The notes under the pieces were generated by a model. It was not told where the DNA came from. It saw only the letters and a program-made list of their open reading frames with translations, and made no database searches. From an uncultured Bacillota bacterium (GTDB taxonomy: Bacteria; Bacillota; Dethiobacteria; DTU022; UBA8154): 64,000 nucleotides of DNA. Of this stretch, positions 43,359 to 43,693 are shown piece by piece (position 1 is the stretch's first letter; each line of letters starts with the position of its first letter). The stretch is from the NCBI GenBank assembly GCA_937973635.1, contig CALJJZ010000045.1, positions 1 through 64,000 of the forward strand, given 5' to 3'. The translations under genes and the position numbers were made by a program.

Positions 43359-43367
43359 TGGTATAAT
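43359..43367 (+). promoter_or_regulatory. Extended -10 promoter for the small transcription unit
   Basis: TGGTATAAT is an extended -10 element located 66 bases before the GTG at 43433. No fitting -35 is seen. With the hairpin at 43629-43654 it delimits a transcript of roughly 280 bases. Confidence 0.45.
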
Positions 43368-43432
43368 CTTCCTGTGTATCTCAGCTATAAAGGCAGGCTT
43401 TTTCGTAAAAACTGATCCCGGAGGTGATAAAC

Positions 43433-43600
43433 GTGGATTATAAACAGCTTGCCAAATCCACGGAAAAATGAAGGGAAAGCCTGCAAAGCCTGGTACGGGC
43501 TGCTTCAGGGACCATGGGTGAAAGTATTAAAAACAAGGGCCAGGAAATTGTAAGCTTGATGGATGATTTTATGGATATGTTGAAAGAAAAAATGAAGTGA
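43433..43600 (+). CDS. Short frame with an in-frame TGA (possibly broken or read through)
   Basis: GTG 43433 is preceded by an excellent GGAGGTGAT site. The reading frame encodes 12 residues (MDYKQLAKSTEK), then TGA at 43469-43471, and continues in the same frame for 42 codons to TGA 43598-43600 with a very helix-prone sequence ending MDMLKEKMK. The two parts together look like one amphipathic helix of about 55 residues. No relative is recognised. Explanations: nonsense mutation or sequencing error in a small gene, readthrough or selenocysteine, or a 12-codon leader with a regulatory RNA. Confidence 0.5.
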
Positions 43601-43628
43601 TTTTTTAAAAATCTCTCTGTCAGGAGTT

Positions 43629-43654
43629 AACACCCCTGTCGGGGTGTTCTTTTT
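43629..43654 (+). terminator. Terminator of the small transcription unit
   Basis: AACACCCC / GGGGTGTT (43629-43636 with 43641-43648) around a TGTC loop, followed directly by CTTTTT. Classical intrinsic terminator upstream of the aldolase gene. Confidence 0.88.
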
Positions 43655-43693
43655 GTCTCTTTCAATAAAAATTTTTAAGGAGGGAAACGTACC

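Follow-up and report, generated by a model that had tools for sequence, protein, structure and literature searches.

An in-frame TGA, very probably a selenocysteine codon, in a small and apparently sporulation-linked gene of an uncultured Dethiobacteria bacterium

The window analysed here (the whole 64,000-nucleotide stretch, positions 1 to 64,000 of contig CALJJZ010000045.1) contains a very short gene whose reading frame is split by a TGA. The question raised by this locus is whether that TGA ends translation, is a lesion in the DNA or in its sequencing, or is read as an amino acid. The frame runs from a GTG at 43433 through a TGA at 43469-43471 to a second TGA at 43598-43600, and its translation is VDYKQLAKSTEK-(TGA)-RESLQSLVRAASGTMGESIKNKGQEIVSLMDDFMDMLKEKMK. 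The internal TGA is codon 13, with 12 codons before it and 42 sense codons after it in the same frame, just as an earlier note on this DNA had described. The features of the locus are as follows.

43385 to 43389, plus strand: possible -35 element CTATA (SigF type GYWTA, one mismatch), with a 15-base spacer to the -10
43405 to 43414, plus strand: SigF-type -10 element GTAAAAACTG (GGNNANAHTR, one mismatch); same element in 11 of 11 intact orthologues
43420 to 43428, plus strand: ribosome-binding site GGAGGTGAT, from the sequence; GGAGGTG kept in orthologues
43433 to 43600, plus strand: predicted small selenoprotein gene of 55 codons, GTG start, Sec as codon 13, stop TGA at 43598-43600; homologues in 12 genomes, with purifying selection before and after the TGA
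43469 to 43471, plus strand: in-frame TGA, probable selenocysteine codon; all 12 orthologues have TGA here
43487 to 43501, plus strand: SECIS-like hairpin AGCCTG-GTA-CGGGCT, from covariation, a synonymous-codon test and likeness to the fdhA and selD SECIS of the same genomes
43629 to 43655, plus strand: intrinsic terminator AACACCCC-TGTC-GGGGTGTT followed by CTTTTTG, from the sequence

The ribosome site lies four bases upstream of the GTG, and the terminator downstream of the gene has a strong stem (43629-43648) and a T tail; both had been recognized in the earlier note. By its predicted signals the small gene is a stand-alone, one-gene transcript. No operon partner is conserved, the neighbors vary between genera, and the aldolase gene by which the locus had previously been placed turned out to be a conserved neighbor in the closest relatives only. 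No known RNA family was found over the whole window. The source genome is a 2.56-Mb draft of 98 contigs, in which the small-gene sequence is present once. A relative of the aldolase with 79% identity belongs to a Dethiobacter MAG, and the source is probably a spore former similar to Dethiobacter.

An alignment of homologues at the TGA had been proposed as the deciding check. A search of 60 relatives gave 11 genomes, the source genome being one of them, that have a homologue interrupted by a single TGA; a class-wide profile search (98 genomes) brought in one further carrier, G066. The carriers therefore number 12 genomes from six genera and two families; nearly all of the compared genomes are drafts. 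All 12 orthologues have their TGA in one and the same column of the alignment, and TAA, TAG, Cys or Trp codons never occur there, an outcome on the side of readthrough or selenocysteine. The TGA form was not found outside the class in a phylum scan of 399 genomes, and neither the class nor the phylum scan contained a Cys form of the protein. One copy, that of G004 (L012 / L168, on G004:C28), is decayed: it retains the TGA, loses the frame about nine codons later and lacks the promoter element. It was left out of the intact orthologue set (n = 11). In non-saturated pairs dN/dS downstream of the TGA is 0.09-0.24, similar to upstream, and third-position changes predominate. Judging by this pattern of substitution, the frame downstream of the TGA is under purifying selection and is translated.

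Four paralogues (L013-L016), in G009, G003, G020 and G017, match the small gene in size, in type of promoter and in ribosome site and can be aligned with it over their full length. They differ from it in that Leu (CTA or TTA) takes the place of the TGA and that there is no hairpin at the corresponding place. The tree of these 55-residue proteins has too low a resolution to order Leu and Sec within the family. We also noted that L014:1501, L015:1501 and L016:1501 make up a second family of small paralogues that code for Leu (MDWLKIAATAQKLKEG...). Its SigF-type promoter and ribosome site are the same, and it weakly resembles the spore protein Tlp (E 0.0065).

The short AGCC/GGCT hairpin that had been seen after the TGA is present, starting 15 bases past the TGA and with its apical loop 21 bases after it. 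It can be drawn as a 6-bp stem with a GUN triloop or as a 5-bp stem with an NGUNN loop. In an ungapped alignment of the 11 intact members, pairing is kept in 90.9% of cells, and both sides have changed in 10 cells, which affects three of the six base pairs. The covariation score was 0.436 as compared to 0.243 in shuffles (0 of 500 shuffles as high); it dropped when the hairpin position was slid and exceeded all slid versions. Compensation is clearest at columns 21 and 31, which pair as C-G in six sequences and as U-A in five; this pair joins the third (wobble) base, C/T, of a Ser/Gly codon to the first base of an Ala/Thr codon. Under resampling of synonymous codons, 60 of 66 pairs were observed where 40.1 were expected (0 of 20,000 draws as high), and with nine lineages and the family codon usage the figures were 49 of 54 and 34.1. 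The pairing of the hairpin exceeds what synonymous codon choice explains.

The published model of the bacterial SECIS has a loop of 3-9 nt, a stem of 4-16 bp and a spacing of 16-37 nt from the UGA, with a G at the first or second position of the loop that usually precedes a G or U (PMC13188914). The geometry of all 11 intact members agrees with this model (PMC13188914). As for energy (limit ≤ -7.5 kcal/mol), 8 of the 11 whole 45-nt folds and 2 of the 11 bare hairpins are within the limit, the bare hairpin being weak in some members (-1.5 kcal/mol in G009 and -1.7 kcal/mol in G017). Within the same genomes, the fdhA SECIS has a 6-bp stem with a GGTCT loop at +18 (for example, GTGGCC-GGTCT-GGCCAC), and the usual selD SECIS has a 7-bp stem with a GGA loop at +20 (GGCCAGG-GGA-CCTGGCC). 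The small-gene hairpin carries its NGUNN/GUN loop at +20/21 (for example, GGTCT-GGTCA-GGACC, loop at +20) and resembles both in spacing, stem and loop. Glycine reductase GrdA, tried as a further source of SECIS for comparison, gave no match anywhere, a result that carries no information.

Decoding of UGA as selenocysteine depends on dedicated machinery, and the earlier note had suggested a look for selA, selB and selC. The source genome has all three (the tRNA-Sec with anticodon TCA) as well as a TGA-containing selD, and its FdhA genes also contain an internal TGA. A TGA-containing SelD, with the motif SAGUAAK, occurs in 12 of 12 carrier genomes, SelB in all 11 carriers tested and tRNA-Sec in 11 of 12, G066 among them. 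In the draft genome G040 selC was not found; because SelB, Sec-SelD and Sec-FdhA are present in that genome, we infer that its tRNA-Sec gene lies in an assembly gap. G066 has two tRNA-Sec genes (G066:C138:3054 and G066:C158:14049; 79 and 76 bits); the contamination estimate for this genome is 7%, so they may reflect a mixed bin.

As the TGA is conserved, the frame behind it is under selection, the hairpin covaries and the Sec machinery is complete, we consider it very likely that the ribosome reads the TGA at 43469-43471 as selenocysteine. Sec insertion had been one of several options listed for this locus, and it is now the best supported. The small gene is very probably a member of an undescribed family of small selenoproteins.

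One alternative is programmed readthrough of the UGA without selenium, where a near-cognate tRNA, aided by the hairpin, would insert an ordinary residue and both a short and a long product would be made. A conserved stop, a conserved downstream frame and a hairpin would fit this too, and to judge by the Leu of the paralogues an ordinary residue would do; however, the stop codon is always TGA, every carrier uses Sec in its SelD, and the loop and spacing of the hairpin are those of the fdhA and selD SECIS. Readthrough of this kind is therefore improbable. Another possibility is that translation truly stops at the TGA, so that the 12 codons before it encode a leader peptide and the part behind it is a regulatory RNA or gives a second peptide through re-initiation. 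An ATG does directly follow the TGA in G011 and G017, but the other orthologues have AGG, AAG, AGA, ATA, CGC or CGG in its place and none of the possible in-frame starts behind the TGA is conserved, so re-initiation does not explain the selection downstream. In addition, alignment with the full-length Leu-coding paralogues shows the family to be a single domain that spans the TGA, and we regard a true stop as very improbable.

It could also be speculated that the TGA is a point mutation or a sequencing error, or that the gene is a pseudogene, and the decay of the G004 copy behind its TGA, together with its missing promoter element, would suit such a reading. Nevertheless, the TGA is common to separate genomes of 12 species and purifying selection continues behind it, while sense codons (Leu) occur only in the diverged, hairpin-less paralogues. 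This reading is hardly credible, and for the source copy the conservation of the TGA led us to reject a sequencing error or a pseudogene, barring one artefact common to all the relatives.

In the most likely mechanism, SigF would transcribe a monocistronic mRNA whose leader is very short, and the ribosome would meet the UGA at codon 13, where the hairpin at 43487-43501 would act as a bacterial SECIS. SelB bound to the hairpin would deliver Sec-tRNA(Sec) at the UGA. The product would be a 55-residue Sec protein, or a 12-residue stub if selenium is lacking.

The role given to SigF comes from the promoter region. An extended -10 had been proposed for this gene; its sequence, TGGTATAAT, is indeed present at 43359-43367, but a sigma-70 scan found no promoter and the element is not kept in relatives. 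The SigF consensus is GYWTA (-35) and GGNNANAHTR (-10). A SigF-type -10 with at most one mismatch precedes the start codon by 17-21 bases in each of the 11 intact members, and it is exact in five of them as compared to 3 of 120 background genes; the -35 is weaker. This -10 would place the transcription start almost at the ribosome site. The source genome has the spoIIAA-spoIIAB-sigF operon, SigG, SigE and SpoIIR. Of 30 relatives that have SigF/SigG, 11 carry the small gene; of 28 that lack them, none does (Fisher 0.0003, uncorrected for relatedness; two incomplete genomes were left out of the count). Transcription is probably from the predicted SigF-type forespore promoter, which SigG may recognize as well. 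A second SigG-like sigma factor gene adjoins spoIIR (G000:C50:6060-6737), besides the SigG beside sigE, and extra SigG-like copies seem to be present in several relatives.

The AlphaFold2 model of the 55-residue protein is a two-helix hairpin (helices 3-24 and 30-54, pLDDT 87). The protein contains no Cys and no CxxU/UxxC redox motif, and Sec 13 would lie in the hydrophobic register of helix 1, at the position of a Leu in relatives. A fold search returned generic helical hairpins (Rop-like) alone, none with an E below 1, and this has no bearing on kinship. The nearest sense proteins in the phylum scan were mostly Spo0E-like (PF09388), that is, small two-helix regulators of Spo0A. They share with the small protein its length and two-helix hairpin (a generic shape; 40-100 residues) and have an IEKLRxEL...KSxELD pattern that can be aligned with it over its whole length; the distant sense protein L147 carries the SxELD pattern. 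On the other hand, the Pfam model PF09388 did not match the small protein at E ≤ 1, and the Asp of the Spo0E signature SxxxD, which is critical (PMC11115286), is replaced in all members except that of G009, where the Ser is Gly. The Sec at the helix 1 Leu position and the SigF-type promoter are further differences. An hhalign comparison gave 97.6% against SpoOE sequences, but these had been fetched by the family's own profile and the value is biased; when SpoOE proteins of the order were chosen independently, the profile comparison was not significant, so we keep the kinship as probable only. The small protein is thus probably derived from Spo0E-like sporulation regulators and is not a PF09388 member. 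A search of openly accessible literature found no paper naming both Spo0E and selenoproteins.

Most known bacterial selenoproteins are redox proteins, and in most known families Sec comes with Cys homologues and a redox motif. The small protein shares with them, including FdhA, SelD and the 119 prokaryotic families and subfamilies of a 2026 inventory (PMC13188914), the in-frame UGA at a conserved Sec position, the hairpin about 15-20 nt downstream with a GU/GG loop, and the presence of tRNA-Sec, SelA, SelB and SelD. In contrast to them, it is an all-helical protein of 55 residues without a Trx-like fold, a CxxU/UxxC motif, a Cys homologue or a known enzyme activity. No entry like it was found in the inventory (PMC13188914), and NCBIfam gave no relevant match at E ≤ 10. 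Selenoproteins are a known kind, among which this one is unusual in being tiny, Cys-free, lacking Cys relatives and apparently linked to sporulation. Many known bacterial selenoproteins were discovered through Sec/Cys pairs (PMC1088965). Such searches would miss the small protein, which is just 55 residues long and lacks both a redox motif and a relative with Cys; this suggests that other tiny Cys-independent selenoproteins may hide behind annotated stop codons.

With regard to function, which is much less certain than the decoding of the TGA, the small protein most likely acts in the forespore, in regulation or in stress, and depends on selenium both to be made and to be active. Sec could have a redox role, such as forming a diselenide between the subunits of a dimer or reacting with a thiol from outside the protein, or it could do no more than make the protein selenium-dependent. 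In the latter case Sec would be kept so that a sporulation regulator is made only when selenium is available, and not for its chemistry. The lack of a Cys, of a redox motif and of a Cys form in any homologue found is consistent with such a gate, as are the Leu in the paralogues, the likeness to Spo0E-like regulators and the Spo0E-like gene that adjoins selB in 13 genomes. A conserved Sec alone, however, fits chemistry equally well, and we hold the gate to be possible but tentative. To our knowledge, no selenium regulation in forespores has been described. The fuller proposal, a Spo0E-derived, Cys-free developmental selenoprotein that is made in the forespore only with selenium and whose Sec arose from a Leu codon and not from Cys, seems to us rather unlikely; TTA to TGA is one base change. 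If it were true, spore formation would be coupled to selenium supply. The small gene is a lead that ties selenocysteine to endospore formation.

In 13 genomes of the order, no more than 150 bases separate selB from a genuine Spo0E-like gene (PF09388), and in a 14th genome the distance is 1.3 kb. The link that this makes between the Sec machinery and a regulator of sporulation is conserved. At the loci inspected the two genes are arranged tail to tail, as at G000:C27:36304-36435 (L158:6242-6457).
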